From assembly GCF_000214375.1 (NCBI RefSeq), contig NC_015578.1, positions 2,728,001-2,792,000 of the forward strand: a stretch of 64,000 nt of DNA, read 5' to 3'. The notes beneath the pieces were generated by a model. That model worked only from the letters and a program-made list of their open reading frames with translations. It was not told the origin of the DNA and searched no databases. How positions within the stretch are numbered: position 1 is the first letter of the stretch; the number at the start of each line of letters is the position of its first letter. Below, piece by piece: positions 6,069 to 21,945 of this stretch. Origin of the DNA: Treponema primitia ZAS-2 (GTDB taxonomy: Bacteria > Spirochaetota > Spirochaetia > Treponematales > Breznakiellaceae). A program made the position numbers and the translations under genes.

Positions 6069-6329
6069 GTGATTTTGCGAAAAACCTATAATCCAGTTTT
6101 ACCACCCCCGATAGATTTACTAGGATATAGCCATCCTTGCTTTTTCGGACAGTCCGCCTCCTACAAATATCTAATTGATTTTTCATATTTTCCAAATAGC
6201 CTTCCCATACTCTGTATGGTTTTTCCTAACCTATCCCATGTAGTACTAAAGCGAGATAGATTCAGTAAAGGCAGTCAGATTGACAGCTTAAATCAAAAAC
6301 AGGAAAGAGTAACACCCCATGAAAAATGA
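6069..6329 (+). CDS. Doubtful 86-residue open frame ahead of the permease
   Basis: The stretch from 5830 to 6318 holds no convincing gene except possibly this frame. In its favour, a perfect anti-16S sequence AAAGGAGGTGAT spans 6062-6073, a good promoter lies just upstream, and the frame ends by overlapping the permease start. Possible starts are GTG at 6069, which falls inside the Shine-Dalgarno sequence, or TTG at 6075, which is only 4 nt from it; both are awkward. The product is rich in Pro, Phe and Ser and resembles nothing I recognise. It may be a leader region or a decayed insertion remnant. Confidence 0.25.
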   Translation: MILRKTYNPVLPPPIDLLGYSHPCFFGQSASYKYLIDFSYFPNSLPILCMVFPNLSHVVLKRDRFSKGSQIDSLNQKQERVTPHEK

Positions 6330-7692: not shown

Positions 7693-7710
7693 GGAGTTGT
7701 TTTAATTAAA

Positions 7711-8307
7711 ATGAAAGTTATCATTGTCGGAGGTTTTTTAGGTTCTGGAAAGACAAGCATTGTGCTGCAAATGGCGCAGTTTTTTGCGGATAAATATCGC
7801 TCTGATAAAAAAAATTCCGTTGTGATTATCGAAAATGAAATCGGAGAAGTTGGTATAGACGATAAGGTACTGAAAAATGCGGGGTATCAGGTCCAGGACA
7901 TGTTTTCCGGATGTGTATGCTGTACAATGTCAGGTGAACTTTTGATAAATATAAACCGCGTTATTAAAGATTTACACCCTGAAATTATTATAATGGAGGC
8001 AACCGGCGTTGCCTATCCAAAAAATATCCAAGATACCCTGACATCGGACCTTCATCTTGATTGTAAAATTTGCTGTATTGCTGATGCAAAACGCTGGCAA
8101 CGCCTACAAAAACCCCTGGGGGAAATGATAAAAAACCAATTGGATGGAGCGGACGAAATACTTATTAACAAAATCGATTTAGTGGACAAAGAATCCCTGA
8201 AATTAACTGAGAAATCAATAAGGGATTTTAACGAAACAGCGGATGTTTTTTTGGTAACGGCAATGGAAAAAGTTGATAATGCAGTTTGGAATAAACTTAT
8301 TGATTAA
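7711..8307 (+). CDS. Short G3E (CobW/HypB/UreG-like) GTPase
   Basis: This 198-residue P-loop GTPase carries the family marks in order: Walker A GGFLGSGKTS at 7-16, ENEIGEVGID at about 47-56, the metal-binding GCVCCTM loop (CxCC), the Walker B-type segment IIIMEATG, and the guanine-specificity motif NKIDL. The C-terminal CobW_C domain of typical 300-400 residue members is missing. The next gene encodes a His-rich stretch plus a small domain, which may supply the missing part in trans. G3E GTPases insert or deliver Zn, Ni or Co cofactors. The setting next to Zn/corrinoid methyltransferases suggests a metal chaperone role there; this is inference. Confidence 0.85.
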   Translation: MKVIIVGGFLGSGKTSIVLQMAQFFADKYRSDKKNSVVIIENEIGEVGIDDKVLKNAGYQVQDMFSGCVCCTMSGELLININRVIKDLHPEIIIMEATGVAYPKNIQDTLTSDLHLDCKICCIADAKRWQRLQKPLGEMIKNQLDGADEILINKIDLVDKESLKLTEKSIRDFNETADVFLVTAMEKVDNAVWNKLID

Positions 8308-8318
8308 GGAGGTATGGG

Positions 8319-8750
8319 ATGAGCGAAAAACCGAGTAATCATCATGAGCACGACCACCATGACCATGACCATGAGCACAACCACGACCACCATGAGCACG
8401 ACCACCATGAGCACGAGCACGACAATATCACCATTTCCAGGCATGAAGAATCACTTATTGGAGTGTTAAAAGGCAATATAAGTGATAATTTTACAGAAGC
8501 CGTTGCCATCGTGGATAGTAAAATGAAAACCGTAGCCCAGGCTATTATTAATTGCGGCGGGATAATTGGCCATATAAAATCCATTATAACTTCAGAAAAT
8601 GAAAAATGTATGATTTCAATAACCGATATGGAAATAGGTTCTCAAAAAAGATTCATGGATGAAAAAACAGCCAGATTTGAAATGGTTGTCATTGTTTTTT
8701 GCATTGGTGAAGATAAGCTATGCGAAATCATTCATTCTGTTGAGGACTAA
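8319..8750 (+). CDS. Histidine-rich metal-binding protein
   Basis: This 143-residue protein starts with a dense His/Asp/Glu tract (about residues 7-36) encoded by a repetitive CAC/CAT/GAC run, followed by a compact domain of about 105 residues that I do not recognise. Strong AAGGAGG precedes the ATG, and the gap from the GTPase stop is 11 nt, so the two are surely co-transcribed. His-rich tracts bind Zn, Ni or Co. In many G3E GTPases such a tract sits between the GTPase and the CobW_C domains, so this protein may be the separated second half of the chaperone. Confidence 0.75.
   Translation: MSEKPSNHHEHDHHDHDHEHNHDHHEHDHHEHEHDNITISRHEESLIGVLKGNISDNFTEAVAIVDSKMKTVAQAIINCGGIIGHIKSIITSENEKCMISITDMEIGSQKRFMDEKTARFEMVVIVFCIGEDKLCEIIHSVED
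8346..8425 (+). repeat. His/Asp/Glu codon repeat tract
   Basis: Near-repeats of CATGAGCACGACCAC and CATGACCATGAC encode the metal-binding His tract of the overlapping gene. They are low-complexity and in frame, and not a mobile element. Confidence 0.8.
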
Positions 8751-8774
8751 ATAATATCTGAATTGAAATACTGG

Positions 8775-8789
8775 AAAATTGACAATTTT
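8775..8789. promoter_or_regulatory. Inverted repeat upstream of the LysR gene
   Basis: AAAATTG A CAATTTT is a perfect 7+1+7 nt inverted repeat about 105 nt before the LysR start. It is AT-rich, as autoregulatory LysR sites often are, but no T-N11-A half-site consensus for this regulator is known. Confidence 0.3.
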
Positions 8790-8892
8790 ATCCGGGCAAT
8801 AGTTTTAAAATTACCTGGGTTCTAGCTTGTATGTTTTGCTCCTTGTTTTTTCACTCCTGTTTTGAAAACTTAAAAGGAGGTTCCAGAGATAC

Positions 8893-9801
8893 ATGACGGA
8901 TTTACAAATTGACTACTTTATGGCTGTTGCAAGGGAGAGCAGCTTTGTTAAAGCCTCAGAACGGCTATATGTTTCTCAACCTGCGATAAGTCGGCAAATT
9001 TCTAACATGGAAAAAGAATTGGAGTGCCTGCTCTTTGATCGGACTAAGAGAAACACAAGATTGACAGCTGCAGGAGAGATGTTTTATAAGTTTTTTAAAG
9101 ACTATAAAAACGGCTTGTCAATAACAAAGTATCACGCAAAAATTATAACTGAAAAAATGGAAGGGACTTTCCGTATAGGATATCTGGAAGGCTGGTCGTT
9201 GCCGGATTTTTTCCCCTCGCTTTTAAACAGTTTCTCCCGGGATTACCCGTCGATAAATATCACTCTATATGCCTGGAACCTGCGGGAACTTATGGAGGAG
9301 TTAGAAGATAATAATCTTGATATCATCATATTTCTCAATATGATTTATCCTATTTCGCCGTTATTCTCCGTTCGGCAGATAACTAAAATTCCCAATATTC
9401 TACTCTATTCAAGGTATTCGCCCCAAGCAAAACTGGAAAACCCTCAAGTGGAAAATTTTAACAATTGTTCATTTTATGTTATCAACACTTTCGATAGTAT
9501 TATTGATTATATACACGATCTCTTTCAGTTATACACGATTGATGAAAGAAACATAATACCTGTTCCCAACATTGAGACCGCAATAGGCAGGGTTAGTAAT
9601 AATCTTGGAGTTGTTATTTTGAATACATGGAACAGAGAACAATACAATCAGCAGTTCCGGTACATTGTTCTCAATAACTTTCAGGAAACAGCCTTCGCAT
9701 GGCTTAAAAACGATACCAATCCATTTCTTGATATTTTCATGGATAAGTTTATGAAACATTTTACCAAAAAGGAGGTACTAAAAAAATTCATCCCTAGTTA
9801 G
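8893..9801 (+). CDS. LysR family transcriptional regulator
   Basis: This 302-residue protein has the LysR winged helix-turn-helix at about 4-62 (AVARESSFVKASERLYVSQP, then LFDRTKRNTRLTAAGE) and a C-terminal effector domain of the periplasmic-binding-protein type. AAGGAGG lies 12 nt before the ATG. It sits at the end of the AT-rich permease/GTPase block and directly before the first URO-D methyltransferase gene in the same direction, separated by a terminator. It is a good candidate to control one or both. The inducer is unknown, perhaps the methylated substrate. Confidence 0.92.
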   Translation: MTDLQIDYFMAVARESSFVKASERLYVSQPAISRQISNMEKELECLLFDRTKRNTRLTAAGEMFYKFFKDYKNGLSITKYHAKIITEKMEGTFRIGYLEGWSLPDFFPSLLNSFSRDYPSINITLYAWNLRELMEELEDNNLDIIIFLNMIYPISPLFSVRQITKIPNILLYSRYSPQAKLENPQVENFNNCSFYVINTFDSIIDYIHDLFQLYTIDERNIIPVPNIETAIGRVSNNLGVVILNTWNREQYNQQFRYIVLNNFQETAFAWLKNDTNPFLDIFMDKFMKHFTKKEVLKKFIPS

Positions 9802-9808
9802 GGTGAAT

Positions 9809-9837
9809 GTATAACCAGATGGTTATACCCTTTTTTT
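9809..9837 (+). terminator. Rho-independent terminator after the LysR gene
   Basis: GTATAACC-AGAT-GGTTATAC forms an 8-bp perfect stem followed by CC and seven T residues, 8 nt after the LysR stop. Confidence 0.85.
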
Positions 9838-9846
9838 AAAAAGGTA

Positions 9847-9877
9847 TTGGACGACTTGAAATTTATGCCTATATAAT
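9847..9877 (+). promoter_or_regulatory. Candidate promoter of the first methyltransferase gene
   Basis: TTGGAC at 9847-9852 and TATATA/TATAAT at 9870-9877 are spaced 17-19 nt apart, between the LysR terminator and the ATG at 9930. Confidence 0.45.
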
Positions 9878-9929
9878 GATTCCAATATGTGCTTGTACAG
9901 CATATAACCAAGTAAACCCGGAGGAAACT

Positions 9930-10973
9930 ATGTCGAAATTAACACCAAGAGAAAATTACCTGAAAATGATGAAAGGAGAAGTACCCGAGTCGGTGCCAAT
10001 ATACAGCTTGGGGCCTGCCTTAAAGGGCGCCCCGCCCACAGTACGGGTTGGCCCAACGGTTTTGTCCGGAGCCCAGGCATTCTTGCCGGGAATTCCCGAT
10101 CCTAATGGCCGTGTTGACTGTTGGGGAATTAAATATATAGCTACTAAGGAAACTGGTAATCAGGCTATTCCGGAACCCGGAGTTTTCCTTCTTGAGGATA
10201 TCCGTAAGTATAGGGATGTTCTGAAACTACCTCAGCTTCCCGATGGCTTCAGCTGGGAAGAACAGGCAAAAAAAGATATCGCCGCATCCAGAATTGATCG
10301 AACCCAGTCCTGTGCTATGGCCTTAGCAATGTTTAGCCCCTTCCAGCAAACGATGGCTTTAATGGGCTTCACCGAAGGGCTTTGCGCCTTTTTTGAAGAG
10401 CCGGAACTTGTTAAAGAGATGCTAAATTGGATGGTTGATTTTTTTGTACCCCATATTGTCAATGTAATGGATTATTATAAACCCGACGTAATGTTTTTTG
10501 CCGATGATACTGCAACGAAAAGCAATCCCTTTATTTCGCTTGAAATGTTTAAGGATATTCTTAAACCCATTTACATGAAAATGGCAAAGCCCGTCATGGA
10601 ACGGGGTATCCCTATCCAGTTTCACAACTGTGGCCGCTGCGAAGATTTTTTAGCAGATAAAATTGATTTTGGCGTTAAGGTCTGGGATCCCGCACAGGTC
10701 GATAATAATCTGGATGAAGTAAAAAGGAAGTTCGGTAACAAAATGTGCATCGCCGGCGGATTCGAATACAAAGTACCCCCGGAATCAAAGGTTGATGAAG
10801 GACAAATACGCCAGATGGTCCGGGATACCGTCGATAGATATGCTCCGGGTGGCGGCTATGCTTACTCTGGCAGCGCATTTCTTAATCCCACAAATGACAA
10901 TGATAAACAGGTAAACGCCTGGATCGCGGAAGAATCCTATGACTACTGTGACGGCTGGTACACCCGGCATTAA
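9930..10973 (+). CDS. URO-D family corrinoid methyltransferase 1
   Basis: This 347-residue protein belongs to the uroporphyrinogen decarboxylase superfamily, in the branch of MtaA/MtvB/OdmB-type methyltransferases rather than true HemE. The zinc-site-like motif is FHNCGRC (H232, C234, C237), followed by VWDPAQ and CIAGGFE. The ATG at 9930 follows GGAGG and is preferred over an in-frame upstream start without a ribosome site. It probably moves a methyl group from an O- or N-methyl substrate to the corrinoid protein encoded at 14463. It is closely similar in layout to the gene at 12341; an MFS carrier lies between them. The substrate is unknown; methoxylated aromatics would fit an acetogenic gut treponeme. 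Confidence 0.82.
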   Translation: MSKLTPRENYLKMMKGEVPESVPIYSLGPALKGAPPTVRVGPTVLSGAQAFLPGIPDPNGRVDCWGIKYIATKETGNQAIPEPGVFLLEDIRKYRDVLKLPQLPDGFSWEEQAKKDIAASRIDRTQSCAMALAMFSPFQQTMALMGFTEGLCAFFEEPELVKEMLNWMVDFFVPHIVNVMDYYKPDVMFFADDTATKSNPFISLEMFKDILKPIYMKMAKPVMERGIPIQFHNCGRCEDFLADKIDFGVKVWDPAQVDNNLDEVKRKFGNKMCIAGGFEYKVPPESKVDEGQIRQMVRDTVDRYAPGGGYAYSGSAFLNPTNDNDKQVNAWIAEESYDYCDGWYTRH

Positions 10974-10983
10974 ATCGGCAATT

Positions 10984-10998
10984 CCGGACTTAGTCCGG
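10984..10998 (+). other. Intercistronic hairpin
   Basis: CCGGAC-TTA-GTCCGG forms a 6-bp stem 10 nt after the methyltransferase stop with no T tract. It may protect the upstream mRNA end or reduce read-through into the MFS gene. Confidence 0.4.
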
Positions 10999-11042
10999 TA
11001 ATATTCCTGTTAAAGCCAGGAGTAAATATTTAGGAGAAAAGT

Positions 11043-12224
11043 ATGCAGGAAAAAGGCAAACTTACTAAGGTTTCGTTGTTATTCAGCGGATGTACTTACA
11101 ACATCAACGTGGTTTCTTTTGCAGTAGCCCTCGGCGCGATTGCAGGGAATTTCCACGCCACACCGACTCAGCTTTCTCAACTTACAAACCTACCGGCTCT
11201 CTTCATGATCCCTGCCGTTTTAATCAGTGCAAAACTGGCAGAGCGGATCAGCAAAAAGGATATACTCCTTGTTGCATGGATATTGTTTATGCTTGGCGGT
11301 CTAATAACAACCCTGGCGCCTTCGATTATGGTTCTCTATGTTGCGAGGGCATTAACCGGTTTTGCCATTGGGTTAATTTCTTCGATTCCCAGAGCCATGA
11401 TTGCTCAACTTTATCCTACGGAAATAGGAAAGCTCACAGGATTTCAAACATCTTGTACTGCTGCAGTTAGCGTCACCTGTTCTTTACTCGCAGGCTTTCT
11501 AGCGACCATAAGCTGGAGACACCCGATTTATTTGTTCTACCTTGGCATAATTGTATTCCTATTGATTCTATTCTTTATTCCCCGGGTACCCGCAGAAAAA
11601 AAGGAATTTGCGGAAGAAAAGAAAGAAAGGAAACCCTATGGCGCGCGGATTTTGTTTACCGTTTTATCCGGCACCCTTGCATTTATGCTCTTTGTTCCCA
11701 TTCAAACTAAATTAACCTTGATCATCATGCAGGGTGGATTTGGGGGCAGTGTAGAAGCAGGGTACGCCAGGGCGATTCTTACGGTTGGTTCTGTAACCGG
11801 CGGTCTGGTTTTTGCAGCATTGGCTAAGAAAAACAAAAAAGCCGTATTGATTCTGGCATTGGGATTGGCAGCTATAGGGTATTACTTCGTATCTACCACA
11901 AACAGCCTGTATGTCCTTTTTGTTTCAATCTTCTTTGCCGGTTTGGGTTCCTTAGGGATGACCCTTCCATGGTTCGGCTCTACCATTGCCCAGTCGGTAG
12001 ATCGGTCAAGGGTTACCATGCTTCTCTCGATTTTTACCATCTGTAATTACCTGTCACAATTTTTGACCACCTATTTAGTCGCAGGTATGGAAATGATCGC
12101 CGGTAACTCTAAACCGACCACGGCTATTTTTGGAACCTTTATACTAATCGTAATTTTCCTTGTTGGTGCGACAATTGTTCTCTTTATTGTACCCAAAAAA
12201 CCAGCTCCAGCAGCAACAGCCTAA
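11043..12224 (+). CDS. MFS transporter
   Basis: This 393-residue, 12-helix major facilitator protein has a central charged loop (about 183-200, rich in Lys/Glu) between its two six-helix halves. The loop between helices 2 and 3 contains KLAERISKKD, matching the family GxLaDrxGrkr signature in weakened form. AGGAG precedes the ATG. Lying between two related URO-D methyltransferase genes, with a terminator after it, it is the likely importer of their methylated substrate, though an exporter of the demethylated product is equally possible. Confidence 0.88.
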   Translation: MQEKGKLTKVSLLFSGCTYNINVVSFAVALGAIAGNFHATPTQLSQLTNLPALFMIPAVLISAKLAERISKKDILLVAWILFMLGGLITTLAPSIMVLYVARALTGFAIGLISSIPRAMIAQLYPTEIGKLTGFQTSCTAAVSVTCSLLAGFLATISWRHPIYLFYLGIIVFLLILFFIPRVPAEKKEFAEEKKERKPYGARILFTVLSGTLAFMLFVPIQTKLTLIIMQGGFGGSVEAGYARAILTVGSVTGGLVFAALAKKNKKAVLILALGLAAIGYYFVSTTNSLYVLFVSIFFAGLGSLGMTLPWFGSTIAQSVDRSRVTMLLSIFTICNYLSQFLTTYLVAGMEMIAGNSKPTTAIFGTFILIVIFLVGATIVLFIVPKKPAPAATA

Positions 12225-12248
12225 TACTTAAGAAGACTGATGCGATTG

Positions 12249-12282
12249 CCCCTAAAAACGGTTGTTTTTAGGGGTTTGTTTT
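12249..12282 (+). terminator. Rho-independent terminator after the MFS gene
   Basis: CCCCTAAAAAC-GGTT-GTTTTTAGGGG is an 11-bp perfect stem followed by TTTGTTTT. Confidence 0.92.
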
Positions 12283-12340
12283 AATACACCATATGTAATT
12301 TACGCGAAGGGTTTAATATTGGTTCGTTAGGAGGATTGCT

Positions 12341-13351
12341 ATGCTTACTGAGAAAGAAAATTATCTAATGTGTCTGAGGGGCGAGCAGCCGGAATGGGTC
12401 CCCAGATATACCATGTTTCAAATTCCCGGACAAGCACCGGTTGCTAGTATCATACTTGCACCGGGTTTACTCAGCCAGTATCGCCGTGTCGGTGGTAAAG
12501 ATGTTTGGGGGGTAAACTACGTTCGAACCTATGAGGCTGGCAATGCTCAAATACCTGAACCGAATAACTTTATTCTAAAAGATATCAGAAAATGGCGGGA
12601 TGTTATCAAGGCGCCTTCCCTGGAAGGGATCGATTGGGAAGACATGGTAAAAAAAGACCTTGAATACTACAAGGTTGATCGAAGCCAAACAGCAGTAGCC
12701 CTGAACATGCAGGTAGGTTTTTTCCAGAACCTTATGGCCTTTATGGGATTTACCGAGGGTCTTATGGCTTTCCATGAGGAACCCGAGGAAGTTAAAGCCC
12801 TACTGAATTACCTCTGCGATTTTTATGTGGCTGTTCAGTCCAAGTATGTGGATATTTTAAAACCCGATGTGATCGCTACCATGGACGATACCGCCACTTG
12901 GGCGGCCCCCTTTATCTCCCCGGAAATGTACCGGGAGTTTATCCTGCCTTTCCATGATCGACAGGTCAAGGTTGGTAGAGACCGAGGACTACCTATAAGT
13001 ATGCATAACTGCGGAAAATCCGAGGCTTTTTTTGATGATCTGGTCAAGATTGGTGTATGTGTTTGGGATCCCTGTCAGACAAGCAACGATGTTGTGGGTA
13101 TTAAAAAGAAGTATGGCAACAAACTGATAATCGCCGGCGGCTGGGATGCCAGAGGCCGACTCCTGGAACCGGATACAACTGAGGAAGAAATTTATGAATC
13201 AGTCCGTTCTACCATGAATTTGCTGGCGACTGGAGGGGGATATGCCTTTTCCGGCCAATTCCTGGGGCCTATGGACGATCCGGTGACGCGAAGGAAGAAC
13301 GGCATTCTTTCTAAAGCGATTAAAGAACTGGGACATGCATTTTACAACTAA
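12341..13351 (+). CDS. URO-D family corrinoid methyltransferase 2
   Basis: This 336-residue URO-D superfamily protein is a clear paralogue of the product of 9930-10973, sharing ExNYL, IPEP, MGFTEGL, DDTAT and HNCG blocks. The metal site reads MHNCGKSE (H222, C224), and VWDPCQ follows. A strong TTAGGAGG sits before the ATG. Like its paralogue it should act as methyltransferase I, demethylating a small substrate onto a corrinoid protein. The N-terminal substrate region differs most between the two, so they may serve different methyl donors. It is flanked by strong terminators on both sides and so is probably its own transcription unit. Confidence 0.82.
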   Translation: MLTEKENYLMCLRGEQPEWVPRYTMFQIPGQAPVASIILAPGLLSQYRRVGGKDVWGVNYVRTYEAGNAQIPEPNNFILKDIRKWRDVIKAPSLEGIDWEDMVKKDLEYYKVDRSQTAVALNMQVGFFQNLMAFMGFTEGLMAFHEEPEEVKALLNYLCDFYVAVQSKYVDILKPDVIATMDDTATWAAPFISPEMYREFILPFHDRQVKVGRDRGLPISMHNCGKSEAFFDDLVKIGVCVWDPCQTSNDVVGIKKKYGNKLIIAGGWDARGRLLEPDTTEEEIYESVRSTMNLLATGGGYAFSGQFLGPMDDPVTRRKNGILSKAIKELGHAFYN

Positions 13352-13361
13352 GCATGCGCCG

Positions 13362-13399
13362 TACTCTCCGCAAAGTATCTTGCGGAGAGTATTATTTTT
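13362..13399 (+). terminator. Strong terminator after methyltransferase 2
   Basis: TACTCTCCGCAA-AGTATC-TTGCGGAGAGTA is a perfect 12-bp stem followed by TTATTTTT, 10 nt after the stop codon. Confidence 0.92.
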
Positions 13400-13485
13400 A
13401 CAATATTCTCAATATTTCCTGCTTATCCTCTCTCTCCTGCAGCGAGAGTTGAGAATTCTTTTCCATCCATATTTTACGGTAATCC

Positions 13486-13520
13486 AAAGTATTCCTGCAT
13501 TTTGTAGGAATACTTTTTTT
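13486..13520 (+). terminator. Second terminator-like hairpin, possible leader attenuator
   Basis: AAAGTATTCCTGCA pairs with TGTAGGAATACTTT (one G-T pair) over a short loop, with seven T residues at 13514-13520. It lies 80 nt before the DHPS-like methyltransferase start, where no gene ends, so it could be an attenuator in that operon's leader or a back-up terminator. Confidence 0.7.
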
Positions 13521-13600
13521 AAATTCCGTCAAAGTATAGAATTGCATATATATCACAGTCATGTAATAATAAATAAAATTAACATAAGGTGGAGTTTCTA

Positions 13601-14401
13601 ATGATTATTATCGGTGAAAAAATCAACGGTTCGATTCCTTCTATGGCGAAGGCAATCGCAGAAAAGAATGAGGATTACATTCGGGATCTGGCAAAAAAGC
13701 AGTCTGAAGCAGGAGCAACCTTCATCGACGTGTGCGCGTCTGTTTCGGAAGACATTGAACTTGAAACCCTTAAATGGTTGATTAATCTGGTGCAGGACGT
13801 TACGGATACCCCTATTTCCGTTGACAGCCCCAGCGCTACGATCTGTGCCAAGGCTATTGAGTTTTGTAAGAAACCTGGCCTGGTAAACTCGGTATCCATG
13901 GAAGGGGACAAGGTTGACCAGGTATTCCCCCTTATTGCCAATACAGGGTGGGAATGTGTGGCCCTGTTAAGCGACGATACGGGGATCCCTAAAAGCGCGG
14001 AAAAGCGGCTCCAGGTTTTTGATGCCCTGATGAAAAAGGCGGATCAATACAAAATTGCCCCAAAACGCCTCCATATCGATCCCCTGGTGGAAATGCTCTG
14101 TACCTCCGAAGACGGTATTGCCAAAATTGTGGAGACCATGACCAAAATAAAGGCCCAGTACCCGGACATCCATTTAACTGGCGGCGCCAGCAATATCTCT
14201 TTCAACCTGCCGGCCCGGAAGTTTGTGAACCGCGCCTTTATCATCCTGTCCATGAGCGCAGGACTGGACAGCGCCATCCTGGACCCCCTTAATACGGAAA
14301 TGATCGGATTGATCTACGCCACAGAAGCCCTGCTGGGTAAGGATGATTTCTGTATTGAATACATTAATGCCTTCAGGGCGGGGCTTTTCGATAAGAAGTA
14401 G
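13601..14401 (+). CDS. Methyltetrahydrofolate:corrinoid methyltransferase (DHPS-like, MtvA/AcsE type)
   Basis: This 266-residue TIM-barrel protein is of the pterin-binding family, close to the usual AcsE/MtvA size. Visible blocks are IIIGEKINGS at the start, FIDVCAS (pterin-contact Asp), PISVDSPS, NSVSMEGDK, IDPLVEMLC and LTGGASNISFNLP. It should transfer methyl between the corrinoid protein and tetrahydrofolate, feeding the Wood-Ljungdahl methyl branch. The ATG at 13601 follows AAGGTGGAG; a GTG four codons upstream lies inside that ribosome site and is rejected. It opens the unit with the corrinoid protein 61 nt downstream. Confidence 0.88.
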   Translation: MIIIGEKINGSIPSMAKAIAEKNEDYIRDLAKKQSEAGATFIDVCASVSEDIELETLKWLINLVQDVTDTPISVDSPSATICAKAIEFCKKPGLVNSVSMEGDKVDQVFPLIANTGWECVALLSDDTGIPKSAEKRLQVFDALMKKADQYKIAPKRLHIDPLVEMLCTSEDGIAKIVETMTKIKAQYPDIHLTGGASNISFNLPARKFVNRAFIILSMSAGLDSAILDPLNTEMIGLIYATEALLGKDDFCIEYINAFRAGLFDKK

Positions 14402-14462
14402 AGATTATTTTTTGAGATCAGGGTTTGTAAAACCCATCTAATATTTTTTCAAGGAGCAAATA

Positions 14463-15092
14463 ATGTCAAAGATTGATGAGATTAAGCAGACCGTAGAAAC
14501 CGGAAAGTCAAAACTTATTGAAGGCCTGGTAGCGGATGCTTTAGCGGAAGGTCTTGATCCTACCAAGATCCTTAATAGCATGATTGATGCCATGGCGGTC
14601 ATTGGTGAAAAGTTCCAGAAAGCGGAAGTCTTCGTTCCTGAAATGCTGGTAGCTGCCAGGACCATGAAGAAGGGCGTTGAGGTGCTTAAGCCCAAATTGG
14701 CCGCCGGCGCCAGCACAAGCCTTGGCAAGTGTATCATCGGCACCGTACATGGGGACCTGCACGATATCGGCAAGAACCTGGTGGCTCTGATGATTGAAAG
14801 CGCCGGGTTTGAAGTGATCGACTTGGGTGTCGATGTAACCGCCGAAACTTTCCTGAACTCCATCAAAGCCAATCCGGATGTGAAAGTCGTGGCCCTGTCC
14901 TGTCTGCTAACCACCACCATGCCTTCCCTGAAGGAAATTGCCGCAGCCGTAAAGGGCAGCCCGGTGAAGAGCTTCAAGCTCATCATCGGCGGTGCGCCTA
15001 TTACCCAGGATTTTGCGAACCAGGTTGGCGCCGATGGCTTTACCACCGATGCAGCCGGCGCCGCACAGCTCGCTAAAAAACTGGCCAGCTAA
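14463..15092 (+). CDS. Corrinoid (B12-binding) methyl-carrier protein, MtaC/MtvC type
   Basis: This 209-residue two-domain carrier has an N-terminal four-helix cap (about 1-85) and a C-terminal Rossmann B12 domain (about 88-209). The cobalamin motif is complete: DLHDIG at 98-103 with H100 as the lower cobalt ligand, the SxL loop at 146-148, and GG at 176-177. CAAGGAGC precedes the ATG. It accepts methyl from the URO-D proteins and hands it to the DHPS-like enzyme encoded just upstream. It is the only corrinoid protein in the window, so all four URO-D proteins here may share it. Confidence 0.95.
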   Translation: MSKIDEIKQTVETGKSKLIEGLVADALAEGLDPTKILNSMIDAMAVIGEKFQKAEVFVPEMLVAARTMKKGVEVLKPKLAAGASTSLGKCIIGTVHGDLHDIGKNLVALMIESAGFEVIDLGVDVTAETFLNSIKANPDVKVVALSCLLTTTMPSLKEIAAAVKGSPVKSFKLIIGGAPITQDFANQVGADGFTTDAAGAAQLAKKLAS

Positions 15093-15120
15093 TTCTACAC
15101 AAGTAAGGAAATAGTCTTTG

Positions 15121-15143
15121 GGGCTCCGGTATTGCCGGAGCCC
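15121..15143 (+). other. Intercistronic 9-bp hairpin
   Basis: GGGCTCCGG-TATTG-CCGGAGCCC lies 28 nt after the corrinoid gene and is followed by TTGTCT. It resembles a leaky terminator that would let the abundant carrier be expressed above the downstream DUF2284 and RACo genes. Confidence 0.6.
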
Positions 15144-15167
15144 TTGTCTAAAGCAAGAGGTATAGTA

Positions 15168-15710
15168 ATGCCGGATCAATTGGAAAAAATTAAAGAGATA
15201 GCCCTGGATTGCGGATTTTCCCATACCGGGATTTTAAATGTGGATACCATAAAGGTTAGGACAGAGGTCCGTGACGCCTGTGCGGTGAATAAATGCGGCA
15301 TCTACAACAAAAAATGGTCCTGTCCCCCGGGCTGCGGCACCCTGGATGAATGTGAAGCCAGAATCCGAAAATTTAAATGGGGGATCCTGGTTCAAACTAC
15401 GGGTATACTGGAGGACTCCCTGGATTATGAGACCATGGAACAAACCGGCAAAGACCATGGGCAGCATATGCAAGCTTTTGCTGAAAAAATACGAAAATTA
15501 TACCCTTCATCAATGGTGATGGGTTCAGGCGGGTGCAGGATATGCGAAACCTGCGCCTTTCCGGATGAACCTTGCCGTTTCCCCCAAGAGATGAATTCCT
15601 CCATGGAAGCCTACGGCCTCCTGGTAAGTGATGTTTGCCAGGATAACAAGCTTCCCTATTATTATGGAAATGGCACCCTAACCTATACGGGCTGTGTGTT
15701 ACTGGAGTAA
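15168..15710 (+). CDS. DUF2284-type Cys-rich metal-binding protein
   Basis: This 180-residue protein has two cysteine clusters, CAVNKCG...SCPPGCGTLDEC at about 33-66 and GGCRICETCAFPDEPC at about 124-140, matching the DUF2284 predicted metal-binding family, which probably carries an Fe-S cluster. The ATG at 15168 has AAGAGG before it; an in-frame TTG upstream lies inside the hairpin and is rejected. It sits 3 nt before RACo. Its role is not established. The position suggests electron supply to RACo or help with corrinoid reactivation, but this is inference. Confidence 0.75.
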   Translation: MPDQLEKIKEIALDCGFSHTGILNVDTIKVRTEVRDACAVNKCGIYNKKWSCPPGCGTLDECEARIRKFKWGILVQTTGILEDSLDYETMEQTGKDHGQHMQAFAEKIRKLYPSSMVMGSGGCRICETCAFPDEPCRFPQEMNSSMEAYGLLVSDVCQDNKLPYYYGNGTLTYTGCVLLE

Positions 15711-15713
15711 CTC

Positions 15714-17528
15714 ATGAATACTAATAATTCTGTAGCGCCGCTTATAACCGTGGTTTCCGGCGATACGGAACAAACCATACGTTTCGATATCCAAAAGGAT
15801 GATAATCTGCTGAAATCCCTGCAAGTCGGGGGCCTGTATGTGCCGGCGATCTGCGGCGGAAGAGGTACCTGTGGTAAATGCAAGGTCAAGGTAACCCGGG
15901 GAAACCTTGAGCCATCCCAGGCGGACAGGGATTATTTTTCTGAAAGTGATATTAATGATGGATGGCGGCTTGGCTGCAATGCGCGCCCAGGGGAGGATCT
16001 GCGGATCATCATCCCCAAATCTGATGAACAGTCTTTTGAATCGGTGATCAGCTTCGGGACCGGAGAAACTGAAGAGTCCGCTACAGGTCCGGCGGCGCAG
16101 ACTGAAAAGATAGCCCTGCAACGAAGCGCCACCAGTTTTGCCCACCAGCTAGCGGGTAACCAGGATAAATACCTTTCCCTGCACTCCCTTACCCAAATTG
16201 CCCTCTGCGCCGATATGGCGGCGGCCAAGGATGCGGCGCCGGTGGGGTCCGAGGAAGCCATCAGGGAGCCCGCAGTATACCTGTACCGGGACAAAGGCGC
16301 CATTGTTTCGGTACAGAGCGGACCTGAGCCGGTCTACGGCATAGGTATAGACATAGGCACCACCACCATTGCCATAGCTCTGGTCGACCTCGTGACCGGC
16401 CGGATTCGGGACCGCTTTTCCACGGTAAACAAACAGCGGGCATTCGGCGCCGATGTGATCAGTCGCATGCAGCGGGCCAGTAAGGGTGATCTGTCCCTGC
16501 TCACCGGAAGTGTGCGGAAACAAATCTCTGTGGGCATAGAAACCCTGTTGGCCACTAATACGATCAGGGCAAGGGATGTGTGCAAGGTTGCTGTGGCGGG
16601 CAATACCACCATGATGCACCTGCTTTTAGGCCTGAGCTGCGCCACCCTGGGGCAGTTTCCCTTTACCCCGGTTACCTTGAATTTTGTATTCTGCTCCTTC
16701 CCTGAACTTTTTGAGGGGGATCTGAGCTGCCAAGTAGCTATACTGCCCGGCATTTCCACCTATGTGGGGGCGGATATCACTGCGGGGATATACTTCTCCA
16801 ATATGTACAAAAGCCGGGAGCCGGAACTCCTCATGGACATCGGGACCAACGGGGAAATGGCCCTCATGGTTTCAGGAAAACTGCTCTGTACCGCCACTGC
16901 GGCGGGGCCCGCATTTGAAGGGGGCAATATACAGTGGGGGACCGGCAGCGTACCCGGGGCTATTTCTTCGGTAGTATGGCAGAATGGACAGTTTGAGCTT
17001 AAGACCATCGGGAATCGTCCCCCTGGGGGGATCTGCGGTTCCGGGGTGGTGGACTTGGTCAATGAGGGCTTGAAAAGCTCTCTTATAGAACCCAGCGGCA
17101 GATTCGATAAATCAGTCCCGAAAACCGGAATTTTCCTGGCCAAGACCGTCGATGGGCAGGATATCAATTTTTGCCAGAAGGATGTCCGGGAGCTGCAGCT
17201 TGCAAAAAGCGCCGTCCGGTCCGGGGTGGATGCCCTGATTCGCCATGCCGGCCTTTCCTACGGGGATATAAAAAATCTGTTTGTTGCCGGCGGGTTCGGG
17301 TATAACCTCAATTTTTCCAGCGGCGCCGGGATAGGGCTCATTCCCCCGGAACTCCAGCCAAAGGTCCGCCTTATTGGAAACAGCGCCCTGGGCGGAACCG
17401 TACGGTACCTACTGGAAGGGGACAGCGAGGAAACCCTGAACGCCATTGTAGGCCTTTCCGAGGAATACAGTTTGCCTGAAGATTCCTATTTTAATGAAAT
17501 GTTTATTGAAAATATCAATTTTGAATAG
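15714..17528 (+). CDS. RACo: reductive activator of corrinoid proteins
   Basis: This 604-residue cytoplasmic protein joins an N-terminal plant-type 2Fe-2S ferredoxin domain (C47, C53, C56, C88) to a C-terminal ASKHA ATPase fold. ASKHA marks include GIDIGTTTIA near 211-220, AGNTTMMHLL near 295-304, DIGTNGEM near 375-382 and VAGGFG near 524-529. RACo proteins use ATP and a low-potential electron to return inactive Co(II) corrinoid to Co(I). The gene starts 3 nt after the DUF2284 stop and ends the methyl-transfer operon. A decayed paralogue lies at 5303-5818. The length is within the usual range. Confidence 0.93.
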   Translation: MNTNNSVAPLITVVSGDTEQTIRFDIQKDDNLLKSLQVGGLYVPAICGGRGTCGKCKVKVTRGNLEPSQADRDYFSESDINDGWRLGCNARPGEDLRIIIPKSDEQSFESVISFGTGETEESATGPAAQTEKIALQRSATSFAHQLAGNQDKYLSLHSLTQIALCADMAAAKDAAPVGSEEAIREPAVYLYRDKGAIVSVQSGPEPVYGIGIDIGTTTIAIALVDLVTGRIRDRFSTVNKQRAFGADVISRMQRASKGDLSLLTGSVRKQISVGIETLLATNTIRARDVCKVAVAGNTTMMHLLLGLSCATLGQFPFTPVTLNFVFCSFPELFEGDLSCQVAILPGISTYVGADITAGIYFSNMYKSREPELLMDIGTNGEMALMVSGKLLCTATAAGPAFEGGNIQWGTGSVPGAISSVVWQNGQFELKTIGNRPPGGICGSGVVDLVNEGLKSSLIEPSGRFDKSVPKTGIFLAKTVDGQDINFCQKDVRELQLAKSAVRSGVDALIRHAGLSYGDIKNLFVAGGFGYNLNFSSGAGIGLIPPELQPKVRLIGNSALGGTVRYLLEGDSEETLNAIVGLSEEYSLPEDSYFNEMFIENINFE

Positions 17529-17576
17529 CAGGGGCATTCCAAATTAGGAATAACCACGGAGTACACGAACTAAAAC

Positions 17577-17620
17577 AAAGCGGCTGTCCCGGAAGCTTAT
17601 AGGTTTGGAACAGCCGCTTT
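17577..17620 (-). terminator. Terminator between convergent RACo and methyltransferase 3 genes
   Basis: AAAGCGGCTGT and ACAGCCGCTTT form an 11-bp perfect stem with a 22-nt loop. Reading the minus strand, the stem is followed by a T-rich run (TTGTTTTAG), 13 nt past the stop of the minus-strand gene. It may also stop RACo transcripts. Confidence 0.75.
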
Positions 17621-17633
17621 AGAAAAAATGGAA

Positions 17634-18638
17634 CTAGAACAGCTCCTTACTCATACGATCGATTTCTTCATTGACCGCTTCATATACGCCGGGGAAGGTG
17701 CTGCCTGGGCCGCCCATGGTAAGGCAGGGAATATAGTAGAGTTTGCCGTTATTCCGGCAGGCCCGTTCGACTTCCGAGCGTACCAGCTCTTTTGTCCAGT
17801 CCCCTTTGTCCAATACCCCATTGTTGAGATCACCCATAAAGGATATTTTTCCGCCGTACTTTTTCACCAGGTCGGGAACATTGTTTTGGGTCGTACAGCC
17901 CTGGAAGACATCAACCCCCATTTCGATCATCTGGGGTACCAGGGTCGCGGCATAGGAATCGCTGTGGTGCACAATAATTTCTACTCCGTGACTCTTGTAA
18001 TAAGCGTAGACCTTCTTGTACGAGTCCAGGTAAAACTCGTCAAACATGGCAGGGGACATGAAGGTTGAAATCTGGGTTCCCCAGTCATCGTGGTGGAACA
18101 GGGCATCCGGCTTGAGGTACTTGCAAACCCCTTCGGCATATTTAAGCTCGTATTCGGTTATAAACTCCACCAGTTCATGCATCGCCTCAGGCTCTTCGTA
18201 AAAAGCTGCCAGACAGTCATCGATCCCCATAAGGTAATGAGTCTGTTCAAAAAGCCCGCAAAAGTAACCTACAGTGCAAAAAACATTTTCCCTGTCCACT
18301 GCTCCCGCAATTTTTACATACTGCTCCCAGTCCGAGGCGGGATAGTCGGTTCTCGGCATCTTAACCACGCTCTTCCACTTGGTAATATCCTTGACCACCT
18401 TGTGCGCATCGTCATGCAAGGGGAAGGGGCCGGGATGGCCTTCCACAAACTTAATGGTAACCCCCCAGGAATTGACCGCTTCGCCTCCAGGCGCCGGTCC
18501 CCGGGAATTCACGCCTATCGGGTTTTGCGCCTGATACGCCGGGGTCATGAGAAGATGCAAAGCCTCATACTGCTTAACAAACCGGTCGGGCTTGCCTCCG
18601 TGGATGGTTTCCAGAAAGTTTTGTCTTTTAGTAAGCAT
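17634..18638 (-). CDS. URO-D family protein 3 (methyltransferase-like, lacks the H-x-C motif)
   Basis: This 334-residue URO-D superfamily protein is transcribed toward the RACo gene. At the position where the two paralogues at 9930 and 12341 have HNCG, it has HHSDS (H224, H225, S226, D227), followed by GVDVFQGCTTQNNVPDL and ISFMGDLNNG. It is thus a different subfamily, possibly with altered metal ligation. FHHDDWGTQ near 181-189 is another conserved block. AAGGAGAAATT lies before the ATG. It is divergent from a PucR-type gene across a palindrome-rich region and is probably controlled by it. The substrate is unknown. Confidence 0.75.
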   Translation of the reverse strand: MLTKRQNFLETIHGGKPDRFVKQYEALHLLMTPAYQAQNPIGVNSRGPAPGGEAVNSWGVTIKFVEGHPGPFPLHDDAHKVVKDITKWKSVVKMPRTDYPASDWEQYVKIAGAVDRENVFCTVGYFCGLFEQTHYLMGIDDCLAAFYEEPEAMHELVEFITEYELKYAEGVCKYLKPDALFHHDDWGTQISTFMSPAMFDEFYLDSYKKVYAYYKSHGVEIIVHHSDSYAATLVPQMIEMGVDVFQGCTTQNNVPDLVKKYGGKISFMGDLNNGVLDKGDWTKELVRSEVERACRNNGKLYYIPCLTMGGPGSTFPGVYEAVNEEIDRMSKELF

Positions 18639-18725
18639 AATTTCTCCTTATGAATGTATTGATATTGAGGTTAAACAAACCACAGGCCGAAACCCTGACC
18701 TTTTTATAGCATGTTTTTCTTTACT

Positions 18726-18780
18726 TTGACAGTTTCATAAAGTTGCAACTTTAAAAAATATACGCTACACTTAGTAGCGT
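18726..18780 (+). promoter_or_regulatory. Divergent control region with palindrome inside a promoter
   Basis: TTGACA at 18726-18731 and TTTAAA at 18750-18755 (18 nt apart) frame the perfect 16-nt palindrome TAAAGTTGCAACTTTA at 18738-18753. A second inverted repeat, ACGCTAC-ACTTA-GTAGCGT, lies at 18762-18780. A regulator bound here could act on both divergent genes. Confidence 0.55.
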
Positions 18781-18816
18781 GACCTTGGGCTGGGTCATTA
18801 AAAAGGGAGAGATGCC

Positions 18817-20352
18817 ATTCAAATCACTTCATCCATGCTTTTTTACCTATTTGAAAAAAAACAGAGACTTAGCTATCTGAGCGGAGGTTCCGGGAGTTTT
18901 GTTTCTTCGGTCCGGGTCCTTGATACGGATAGCCCGGAGCCGGATTTTTTGTATATATGCGGCAGCCTGGAAGATCTGGACCGTATTACAAAACCGGTTT
19001 CCTGTTCTTTCCTGCTTACCGGCCCGGTGGAGAAACAGAGCATACCGGAGCAGCTGCGCGGCCTGGACATAGCCTGCGTTACCGAGTCTACGCCGGTGGT
19101 CAAGGTTCTACAGGATGTTTTTGCCTTGATCCTGAGCCTGGTGAATTGGGACATCCGCCTTAATAACGCCAGCTTTGAAGGAACCGAGTATGCCAATTTA
19201 TTTAAAATTATCCGGGAACAGTTTACCATGCCCTTTCTCCTCCATGACCGGAATTTTGGAATTATTGCCTATTCTCAGGATAGTTTAGCGGATCCAAAAA
19301 GGGAACTTGTCCCCATAGAGAGGGTTAATGAAATAATTATGGAAGAGGGGACGGTTCACAAAATTTTTGAACATCGGGAGCCCTATATTTACCCCCCCTT
19401 TCCCTGTGAAGAACGGTGGCTCTGTAGTAATTTTTTCAGCGGAAACCACTTTGAATGCCGTTTTATCGCCGCTTACGATCAAAGTTCCCCCAATATAAAC
19501 GGGCAGTTGGAATTGCTGAAGATTTGCTGCGCTTACACAGGCAAAATTTTTATCAATAAATCGGGGAAGCTGATCGACAAAAGACAGAATGAAGAACTCC
19601 ATGAATTGATACGGAGTTATATCCAACAGTCAAGCGATCTTACCGGTCAGGATATTATCCCCATTATCAAAAGGACAGACTGGCAAATACAGGATCAATA
19701 TAGGGTAGTGATTTTTCGTATGCCCGATGCCATGGAGTTTAAAAACAGCTCATCCTATCTGTGCAGATACCTGGAAACCGATGTTATACATTCCTGCGCA
19801 CTGATTATGGAGCCCCTGATTATATGGATAATGAATTACCGGTTTCAGGGAAAGACGAAATATCAATTTGGGGATTACCGTAAAGTAGTTCCCTATCTGG
19901 TTCGGGAATTTAACTGTAAGGCGGGAATGTCAAACAAGATGGGTTCTTTTATGGGCCTGCGGGACGCTTACACCCAGGCCAATGCGGCGCTGCGATTGGG
20001 GGAAAAAAAGGATCCCCATCTTTGGTGTTATAATTTTGCTGACTATACCATGGAATATATTACCGATCGCCTTACCAGCGAGTTATCCCCGGAAAACATG
20101 CTCCACCCCGGGGTTATCGCCCTTACGGAATACGATAAACAAAACGGCACTGAATATCTGAAGACTATCCAATATTTTTCTGATGCGCGGTATAATATGA
20201 CGACTGCAGCTGCAAGGCTGCCGGTTCACCGCTTAACTTTTCTGCGCCGCTTGGAAAAGATAAAGGAGATATCCAGGATAGATTTTGAAAACTCCGATGA
20301 ACTGCTCCTTATCCAGCTTTCATTAAATATTTTGGGCGCCTCTAAAAACTAA
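18817..20352 (+). CDS. PucR-type transcriptional regulator 1 (probable ATT start)
   Basis: The protein is about 511 residues long with a C-terminal PucR/CdaR helix-turn-helix (YNMTTAAARLPVHRLTFLRR) and a preceding GGDEF-like regulatory region, as in the PucR family. The first in-frame ATG at 18835 is 24 nt from the ribosome site GGGAGAG (18805-18811). ATT at 18817 is at proper spacing and gives xQITSSMLFYLF, which aligns with the N-terminus MRISADILFMEL of the paralogue at 20374-21945. The gene is divergent from URO-D gene 3. It probably regulates methyl-substrate genes; the effector is unknown. Confidence 0.8.
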   Translation: MQITSSMLFYLFEKKQRLSYLSGGSGSFVSSVRVLDTDSPEPDFLYICGSLEDLDRITKPVSCSFLLTGPVEKQSIPEQLRGLDIACVTESTPVVKVLQDVFALILSLVNWDIRLNNASFEGTEYANLFKIIREQFTMPFLLHDRNFGIIAYSQDSLADPKRELVPIERVNEIIMEEGTVHKIFEHREPYIYPPFPCEERWLCSNFFSGNHFECRFIAAYDQSSPNINGQLELLKICCAYTGKIFINKSGKLIDKRQNEELHELIRSYIQQSSDLTGQDIIPIIKRTDWQIQDQYRVVIFRMPDAMEFKNSSSYLCRYLETDVIHSCALIMEPLIIWIMNYRFQGKTKYQFGDYRKVVPYLVREFNCKAGMSNKMGSFMGLRDAYTQANAALRLGEKKDPHLWCYNFADYTMEYITDRLTSELSPENMLHPGVIALTEYDKQNGTEYLKTIQYFSDARYNMTTAAARLPVHRLTFLRRLEKIKEISRIDFENSDELLLIQLSLNILGASKN

Positions 20353-20373
20353 CCGGATTTTTGGGGATTCCCA

Positions 20374-21945
20374 TCATTCCTGCCCGGTATCCAGTTCCAG
20401 CAATTTAAATGACAACAGCAAATACCACTGATTGCTGCTGTCTTCGATATTCAAACCGCTTATTTCCCTGATCCGTTCCAGCCGATATGTAAGGGTACTA
20501 CGGTGTATGGATAATTCTATAGCCGTCCCGGTGATATTCAAATGATTTTCCAGATATTTTAAAAGGGTTCGGAATAAATCGGCTTTATGCTTACGATCAT
20601 AATCACGCAGTTTTATTAATTCAGGTGAACAGATCATGGAGGGAGGAAATTCGCCGGCACAAAAGTCAAGGATCAGGGATTTAACAATATTTTTAAAATA
20701 ATACAAATGAGCCAGAGGGCTGCTGCGATTGCCTGCCTTTAACGCCAATTCCGCCTGTCGGTAATACAGTTTTAATGTATCAAAACCCGAAAATTTATCG
20801 CTGATACCGGCTTTAAGATTATTATTAATGAGGAATGTGCCCATGATAACCGAAAACCGGTCGACTTTTTCCCCCGAAAAGCCGTCAAAGCTGTCAATTT
20901 TCGCGTCCGGGATGTTCTCACCCATATCATTCATATTGATAAATACCGCTACTGCAGCATCGTACTCAAAAACACAGGCTTCGGGAATAATTTCTTTTAT
21001 ACCTGCCTCTATAAAAGAAAGGGCGGGATGTTCATCATAACTTGAGTCAAAGAAAACTTTCATACATACATACTGATAATCATCGATCCAGTTGAATGTG
21101 CCAAGCAGCTCTTTAATAGAAACTGCATCGGTAAATTCTCCAATCAGAATATTCCTGATAATGTTTGGTAAAACCATCTGCCTGGCAGCATCTGCGGATG
21201 ACCCTGTTATAATCGGCTGAACCCTCTCCGCCAAATGTTCTAGAAGGGCGCTGTCACTGGGGTTAAATTTTCGGGAATATTCCAGAACCAACAGCCGGTA
21301 TTGCAAACGGTTTTTTTGAAAAATGTTCACATAAAGGCTGCGGACGCCGGTTATACTGGTGGGGAACAGTACTGCCCGCTGCATGGAATAAATATCGTAC
21401 TCTGAAAGATCAATATGATCAGCGTCTTTTTCCTGTAGTATATAGGGCATCCGGGGAAATGCATCGGTATATTTTTTTGAAAAACTGATAACCTTGTAAT
21501 AATTATCATGGAGAATCAGTGGGTTATTGAATATGTTATCACTGGCATCAAGCATGGCCTGGATATCCCTGTTATGGTTCAGAGCTTCCAGAAGATCTGC
21601 ATCCCATTTATCGAAACGGGAATAGATATTCTGCACTATATCATAAATATCCAGGGGCAAAACATCACGGAAGGTAAAAATAGCTTCGAATAATCCAAAA
21701 TATTTTTCCACGGTCCCCAAATTTGTATTTGGCTGCATATATAAAAGGATGGAACGGGTTTTTTTATCCGGCACGGCGCTTACCGTATTTGCATCGCATA
21801 TATAGATCTGATCATCCTTTACAACCGTACCATCCCGTAAAAACTGCGGCCGCTCAAGGGTAAGTTCACCGTTCAGGTTACCAAAAAACGCAACTGTAAA
21901 CCTGCCGCTTAATTCCATGAACAGTATATCTGCGCTAATCCTCAT
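20374..21945 (-). CDS. PucR-type transcriptional regulator 2
   Basis: This 523-residue protein has the same architecture as its convergent neighbour: an N-terminal sensory region, a middle domain with LKAGISDKFSGFDTLKLYYRQAELALKAG, and a C-terminal helix-turn-helix (HLNITGTAIELSIHRSTLTY). Its ATG overlaps the ispH stop by 4 nt (ATGA at 21945-21942), so it is translated from the sec-ispH mRNA. The stop lies 21 nt from that of regulator 1. The two PucR genes probably arose by duplication; this copy has been tied to a housekeeping operon. Confidence 0.85.
   Translation of the reverse strand: MRISADILFMELSGRFTVAFFGNLNGELTLERPQFLRDGTVVKDDQIYICDANTVSAVPDKKTRSILLYMQPNTNLGTVEKYFGLFEAIFTFRDVLPLDIYDIVQNIYSRFDKWDADLLEALNHNRDIQAMLDASDNIFNNPLILHDNYYKVISFSKKYTDAFPRMPYILQEKDADHIDLSEYDIYSMQRAVLFPTSITGVRSLYVNIFQKNRLQYRLLVLEYSRKFNPSDSALLEHLAERVQPIITGSSADAARQMVLPNIIRNILIGEFTDAVSIKELLGTFNWIDDYQYVCMKVFFDSSYDEHPALSFIEAGIKEIIPEACVFEYDAAVAVFINMNDMGENIPDAKIDSFDGFSGEKVDRFSVIMGTFLINNNLKAGISDKFSGFDTLKLYYRQAELALKAGNRSSPLAHLYYFKNIVKSLILDFCAGEFPPSMICSPELIKLRDYDRKHKADLFRTLLKYLENHLNITGTAIELSIHRSTLTYRLERIREISGLNIEDSSNQWYLLLSFKLLELDTGQE

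Follow-up and report, generated by a model that had tools for sequence, protein, structure and literature searches.

A corrinoid-dependent methyl-transfer cluster, probably of the O-demethylase type and with several URO-D methyltransferases, in the acetogenic spirochete Treponema primitia ZAS-2

The Odm and Vdm O-demethylases of Acetobacterium comprise a substrate-side methyltransferase (MT I), a corrinoid protein (CP) that carries the methyl group, a methyl-corrinoid:tetrahydrofolate methyltransferase (MT II), and a RACo-type activase. The MtvABC system of Moorella thermoacetica has an MT I of the URO-D family, a CP, and an MT II, with an MFS transporter and two URO-D genes in its locus, and the Mto operon of Methermicoccus and Archaeoglobus likewise keeps two MT I, a CP, an MT II, an activase, and an MFS transporter in one neighborhood (PMC8630106, PMC8359953); the characterized Mto operon also has MFS transporters and multiple MT I (PMC8630106). 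Termite hindguts demethylate methoxylated aromatics, and the organisms responsible were unidentified according to a 2021 account (PMC7886697). Treponema primitia is an H2/CO2 acetogen of the termite hindgut (PMC6011938). Here, we describe a gene cluster of T. primitia ZAS-2 that holds the same four components as the Acetobacterium systems, in a window of 64,000 nucleotides (bases 2,728,001 to 2,792,000 of the complete genome of 4,059,867 bases; contig NC_015578.1). We put at about 70% the probability that this acetogenic spirochete has here a methyl-transfer system that depends on a corrinoid and resembles the O-demethylases of Acetobacterium, with several MT I and one carrier. The cluster thus offers candidate genes for O-demethylation in the termite gut, and the presence of the full gene set in a cultured acetogen makes that role directly testable.

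Genes were identified from open reading frame (ORF) calls and searches with Pfam and NCBIfam profiles. A sequence-only reading had listed three URO-D-type genes, a DHPS-like methyltransferase, a corrinoid protein, a DUF2284 gene, and RACo between positions 9930 and 18638 of the window. All seven are intact ORFs above the Pfam cut-offs, and to them we add an MFS transporter gene that the list had overlooked between the first two URO-D genes.

9930-10973, + strand: UROD1, predicted MT I (Pfam URO-D, 6.5e-12), with ATG at 9930 and GGAGG upstream
11043-12224, + strand: MFS transporter (Pfam MFS_1, 3e-41)
12341-13351, + strand: UROD2, predicted MT I and UROD1 paralogue (Pfam URO-D, 2.1e-14)
13601-14401, + strand: MT II, Pterin_bind (DHPS-like), over the NCBIfam cut-off, with ATG at 13601 and AAGGTGG upstream
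14463-15092, + strand: CP, predicted methyl carrier (Pfam B12-binding and B12-binding_2)
15132-15710, + strand: DUF2284, Cys-rich predicted metal-binding protein (Pfam, 1e-49)
15714-17528, + strand: RACo-type reductive activase (Pfam; 2Fe-2S, RACo middle, and C-terminal domains)
17634-18638, - strand: UROD3, predicted MT I (Pfam URO-D, 7.4e-18)

Judged by the Pfam E-values of the cluster genes (6.5e-12 to 4.5e-61), the DLHDIG (DxHxxG) and GG motifs of the CP, and the finding of the same gene types together in other genomes, the cluster is more than a chance assembly. The MT II scores 347 bits against the NCBIfam model "methyltetrahydrofolate:corrinoid/iron-sulfur protein methyltransferase" (cut-off, 259), 304 bits over nearly its full length against PDB entries 4o0q, 4o1e, and 4o1f, which we take to show the MT II component of an O-demethylase from D. 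hafniense, and 140 bits against AcsE. In the MT II tree, it lies in an 11-row clade (support, 99) with Acetobacterium-type, Sporobacter, and Acetitomaculum proteins and those of spirochete metagenome-assembled genomes (MAGs); 4o0q falls in a neighboring group and AcsE outside. The likeness to the D. hafniense enzyme stops at the MT I, since the MT I genes beside its close relatives belong to the Mtv clade (loci L183 to L186). The closest partners of the CP in its tree come from two Spirochaetaceae MAGs (support, 98), with identities of up to 75%, reached with a MAG probably of termite-gut origin; the Mtv corrinoid proteins form a separate group (99). The genome has two matches to RACo_C_ter, RACo itself and one at 1.09 Mb. 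DUF2284 genes recur at unrelated methyltransferase loci, beside corrinoid proteins and activases or URO-D genes, in an Acetobacterium-like genome (G838), in Acetitomaculum and Blautia, and at a second T. primitia locus (L041), as well as at L114, L195, L198, L262, and L268; the protein may have a role in electron transfer or corrinoid maturation.

The mechanism that homology predicts for these parts is well supported. Using ATP and a low-potential donor, RACo would bring the CP to the Co(I) state. One of the three URO-D enzymes, each with donors of its own, would transfer a methyl group to Co(I), and MT II would hand it from methyl-Co(III) to tetrahydrofolate, from which methyl-tetrahydrofolate would feed the Wood-Ljungdahl pathway to acetate. 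As for the substrates, we infer that the methyl donor is most likely a methoxylated aromatic freed from lignocellulose.

A tree of 84 URO-D proteins (supports given as UFboot/SH-aLRT) places UROD1, UROD2, and UROD3 in one 61-row clade (100/97), apart from HemE, MtaA/Mlp, and MtvB. Identities to these are 14 to 16% for MtvB, 12 to 15% for HemE, and 14 to 15% for MtaA; identities computed with free end gaps are meaningless for such distant pairs and hence were not used. Pfam assigns all three proteins to URO-D, as it would if they were ordinary heme- or coenzyme M-type genes that lie beside a corrinoid operon by accident, but the separate clades, the scores far under the NCBIfam cut-offs, and the recurrent association with corrinoid genes leave that explanation with almost no probability, and the tree refutes it. 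HemE identity was rejected on the separate clade and on the hemE model, which UROD3 matches at 20.5 bits (cut-off, 303) and UROD1 and UROD2 do not match; a grouping with HemE, which the sequence-only reading had named as contrary evidence, is absent from the tree. Membership in MtaA/Mlp was rejected on the same two kinds of evidence and on the presence of MT II in the cluster. Type 1 mlp clusters resemble this one in combining several URO-D genes with a corrinoid protein and an activase but have MtaA-like URO-D proteins and no MT II (PMC10418091); the Mlp-like locus of T. primitia is elsewhere (L041), and MtaA groups in the tree with one Mlp protein of this genome. AlphaFold models of UROD1 and UROD3 (pLDDT, 90.9 and 92.7) have UROD and MtaA structures as their best structural matches and show the URO-D/MtaA fold in both.

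The MtvB proteins form their own clade of 14 rows (100/99), and MtvB membership was likewise rejected. The mtv locus itself (L181) was assigned by gene content and order (MT II, URO-D, CP, MFS, second URO-D) in a genome that we recognized as Moorella because it encodes a protein 100% identical to the corrinoid protein of 1Y80, presumably from M. thermoacetica. The description of the route as of the vanillate type needs correction in that the URO-D proteins are not close to MtvB, and it is an analogy for UROD1 and UROD2. What stands of the proposed acetogen-type methyl route in a spirochete is the full set of parts from substrate to tetrahydrofolate, including MT I, CP, MT II, and RACo, with MT I not of the Mtv kind. 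The same difference separates the cluster from Mto, whose MtoB is related to MtvB according to published descriptions (PMC8630106, PMC8359953).

Within the 61-row clade, UROD3 belongs to a 28-row subclade (100/100) with proteins of Acetobacterium-like genomes (the order of genome G799), next to the subclade of UROD1 and UROD2. It is 57% identical to a protein encoded in a UROD-MTII-CP operon of G838, and operons of this form with a UROD3-type gene occur in G838 and two further genomes (L267, L264, L273), an arrangement that we take to be that of the odm and vdm genes of A. dehalogenans. UROD3-type genes (E < 1e-60) are present in 37 of the 67 genomes searched in the order, many with 6 to 11 copies, and the genomes of 3 to 4 Mb, G838 included, have 3 to 11 each. 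The same trio of UROD3-type gene, MT II, and CP is carried by a spirochete outside the family (G087, L199). Relatives of UROD3 conserve HDDWG and HH-x-D. UROD3, MT II, and CP all fall with proteins of Acetobacterium-like genomes, which are genus-level proxies and not OdmB or VdmB themselves; the cluster differs from Odm and Vdm in its two additional MT I of another subclade, its adjacent DUF2284 and RACo genes, and a COG0523/His-rich pair described below.

UROD1 and UROD2, about 41 to 43% identical to each other, lie in a subclade of gut anaerobes, with Sporobacter termitidis (51% for UROD1), Acetitomaculum ruminis, Blautia parvula, and Spirochaetaceae MAGs with isolate codes suggestive of termite guts as the nearest named hosts. 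Sporobacter termitidis, a termite-gut bacterium, O-demethylates methoxylated aromatics (PMC8359953). Any match at 1e-20 was found in only 7 of 393 Spirochaetota genomes, and outside T. primitia none exceeded 30% identity; because close relatives are so rare in the phylum, it is likely that the system came from Bacillota. Relatives of the two proteins conserve H232-x-C234-G and D192-D193, and UROD1 and UROD2 carry HNCG. Zinc is a reported component of the O-demethylases for veratrol and vanillate, though not of CdmB or of the enzyme from Moorella (PMC13222342), and by analogy a zinc site served by a COG0523 chaperone is a reasonable proposal for UROD1 and UROD2. Machinery of this sort is familiar, and the interest lies in its host, a termite-gut spirochete, with two MT I whose subclade is unexplored and a probable metal-delivery pair.

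Several points weigh against the assignment to an Acetobacterium-type O-demethylase. A position of OdmB and VdmB inside the UROD3 subclade is presumed from the proxies. The zinc motif of the A. dehalogenans MT I, which we take to be E-X14-E-X20-H, occupies one constant position in some of the Acetobacterium-like proteins, but UROD3 reads D-X14-E-X20-K. We know of no characterized member of the UROD1/UROD2 subclade. The APC permease upstream of UROD1 could hint at an amino-acid-like donor, and the genome has a separate Mtv-like cluster. Finally, CdmB, a relative of the O-demethylases, uses haloalkanes and not methoxylated aromatics, so family membership cannot fix the substrate (PMC13222342).

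The E-X14-E-X20-H motif, present in only a subset of the UROD3-type proteins, could mark a functional split among them. ZAS-2 is reported to grow on methoxylated benzenoids (Graber and Breznak, 2004), which would agree with the proposed donors; among the papers that we searched, none pairs the strain with methoxylated substrates. The survey of gene neighbors revealed no gene for aromatic degradation from which the substrate could be read, with only regulators, transporters, and CobW recurring.

The cluster at 1280569-1291522 comprises two corrinoid proteins of the Mtv clade, a URO-D protein of 383 amino acids that belongs to the MtvB clade and sits on a long branch, an MT II, an MFS transporter, a longer CobW, and DUF1638, and could be a vanillate system. 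It is the Mtv-like cluster of this genome and, being equipped with its own URO-D, CPs, MT II, and MFS, might take the methoxylated aromatics, leaving the cluster described here to methylated amino acids or amines, methyl-sulfur compounds, or haloalkanes. The haloalkane specificity of CdmB and the APC permease beside the GTPase, with a counterpart near a UROD1 relative at L055, would fit such a division. We consider it improbable, however: UROD1, UROD2, and UROD3 lie outside the MtaA/Mlp clades of coenzyme M and methyl-sulfur enzymes, the known MT I for methylamines and quaternary amines belong to other families, and close relatives occur in anaerobes from the guts of herbivores and termites, some of which are known acetogens and O-demethylators. 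The nearest relatives of CdmB, moreover, are MtoB and MtvB (PMC13222342), a clade that UROD1 to UROD3 do not join.

The order and strands of the genes bear on whether the carrier is shared. Terminator-like hairpins follow the LysR gene upstream of UROD1 (9809-9828), the MFS gene (12248-12275), and UROD2 (13361-13392 and 13486-13516), and UROD3 is on the strand opposite to the rest of the core with its own Shine-Dalgarno sequence; promoter and terminator scans are suggestive only (24 terminator-like sites against 16 expected). RACo and UROD3 converge, and the stretch between them has, by eye, an inverted repeat (aaagcggctgt...acagccgcttt, about 17574-17621) that is probably a two-way terminator. 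Because of the hairpins after MFS and UROD2 and the strand of UROD3, the cluster is probably several transcription units and not one operon, the likely units being UROD1-MFS, UROD2, MTII-CP-DUF2284-RACo, and UROD3. This layout suits a core to which exchangeable substrate modules are added better than it suits a single operon. Rfam searches found no RNA elements in the window.

By its strand, its Shine-Dalgarno sequence, its own PucR-type regulator, and the hairpin that separates it from RACo, UROD3 could be an independent unit that uses another carrier, with the CP at 14463 reserved for UROD1 and UROD2, or the reverse could hold. UROD3-type genes adjoin CP and MT II in G087 and the Acetobacterium-like genomes, and only 2 of 78 surveyed loci with clear UROD1/UROD2 genes have a corrinoid gene. 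A split of either kind seems to us doubtful. The CP and MT II of the window belong to the clade of the UROD3 operons, which favors UROD3 as their user, and the other corrinoid proteins of the genome are MetH, an Mlp type, an Mtv-like pair, and an orphan. Genome-wide, there are 14 URO-D, 6 B12-binding_2, and 4 Pterin_bind matches; no corrinoid gene adjoins any of three paralogues of UROD1 or UROD3 (at 595, 599, and 2301 kb), and each of the two Spirochaetaceae MAGs has one strong MT II and several UROD1-type genes. One carrier shared by many MT I fits these counts, as well as the 2 corrinoid-bearing loci among the 78, and is plausible. The parts list for a complete methyl route in the sequence-only reading (MT I, CP, MT II, and activase) holds, and its shared carrier is kept at that lower strength.

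The interval 9930-18638 proved too small for the system, which we put at about 6319-21945, because the GTPase/His-rich pair and the PucR-type regulators recur near such URO-D genes and the APC permease has a relative near UROD1-type genes at L055. The flanking genes are as follows.

6319-7692, + strand: APC-family permease (Pfam AA_permease_2), candidate transporter, with a 533-bit relative near UROD1, CobW, and His-rich genes at L055
7711-8307, + strand: COG0523/CobW-type G3E GTPase (Pfam cobW, 1.4e-38), short form with a GCxCC motif (GCVCC), candidate metallochaperone
8319-8750, + strand: small His-rich protein, probable metal-binding partner of the GTPase, from its sequence and its recurrence beside a UROD1 paralogue and CobW
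8893-9801, + strand: LysR-type regulator (Pfam)
18835-20352, + strand: PucR/CdaR-type regulator (Pfam HTH_30), divergent from UROD3, with relatives near URO-D genes
20374-21945, - strand: second PucR/CdaR-type regulator, PucR2 (Pfam HTH_30), with 17 matches near URO-D genes in the loci examined

The GTPase/His-rich pair at 7711-8750 lies upstream of LysR and UROD1. In 10 of the 78 loci, the gene that comes immediately after a UROD1/UROD2 relative, in the same orientation, encodes a CobW/COG0523 GTPase (gaps of -42 to 106 bases), and 9 of the 10 also have a relative of the His-rich gene. The UROD1 paralogue of T. primitia at 2.30 Mb (2301377-2303420, L044) is likewise followed directly by CobW and a His-rich gene, and the His-rich gene recurs in several foreign loci. 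This recurrence suggests an overlooked metal-delivery step, in which the pair would probably supply metal (zinc) to the His-x-Cys-Gly site of UROD1 and UROD2. The MFS and possibly the APC transporter would import the donor or export the phenol, and the LysR and PucR-type regulators probably sense the donor. A more specific proposal, to which we give a small chance, is that UROD1, UROD2, and their His-x-Cys-Gly relatives with the split COG0523/His-rich pair form a distinct and biochemically unexplored class of metal-chaperone-dependent MT I for donors other than simple methoxylated aromatics (for example, an amino-acid-like or glycosylated methoxy compound taken up by APC or GPH transporters), with a single carrier common to all of them.

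Further URO-D genes lie elsewhere in the genome. Just upstream of the 2.30-Mb paralogue is a transposase-like ORF (integrase type, by eye). The locus at 595680-600852 (L042) has a UROD3 paralogue (63% identity), a GPH-type (MFS_2) transporter, and another URO-D gene, with LysR nearby and no corrinoid gene within 19 kb. At 3555023-3558429 (L041), a pair of Mlp-like URO-D genes has a corrinoid protein and DUF2284 between them, and the RACo and MT II profiles are unmatched within 15 kb. A fourth URO-D gene of the window, UROD4 (51451-52704, - strand; 417 amino acids, HCCG motif), is downstream of a sugar-type ABC set (Peripla_BP_4, BPD_transp_2, and an ABC ATPase) and is sister to a gene at 2.996 Mb.

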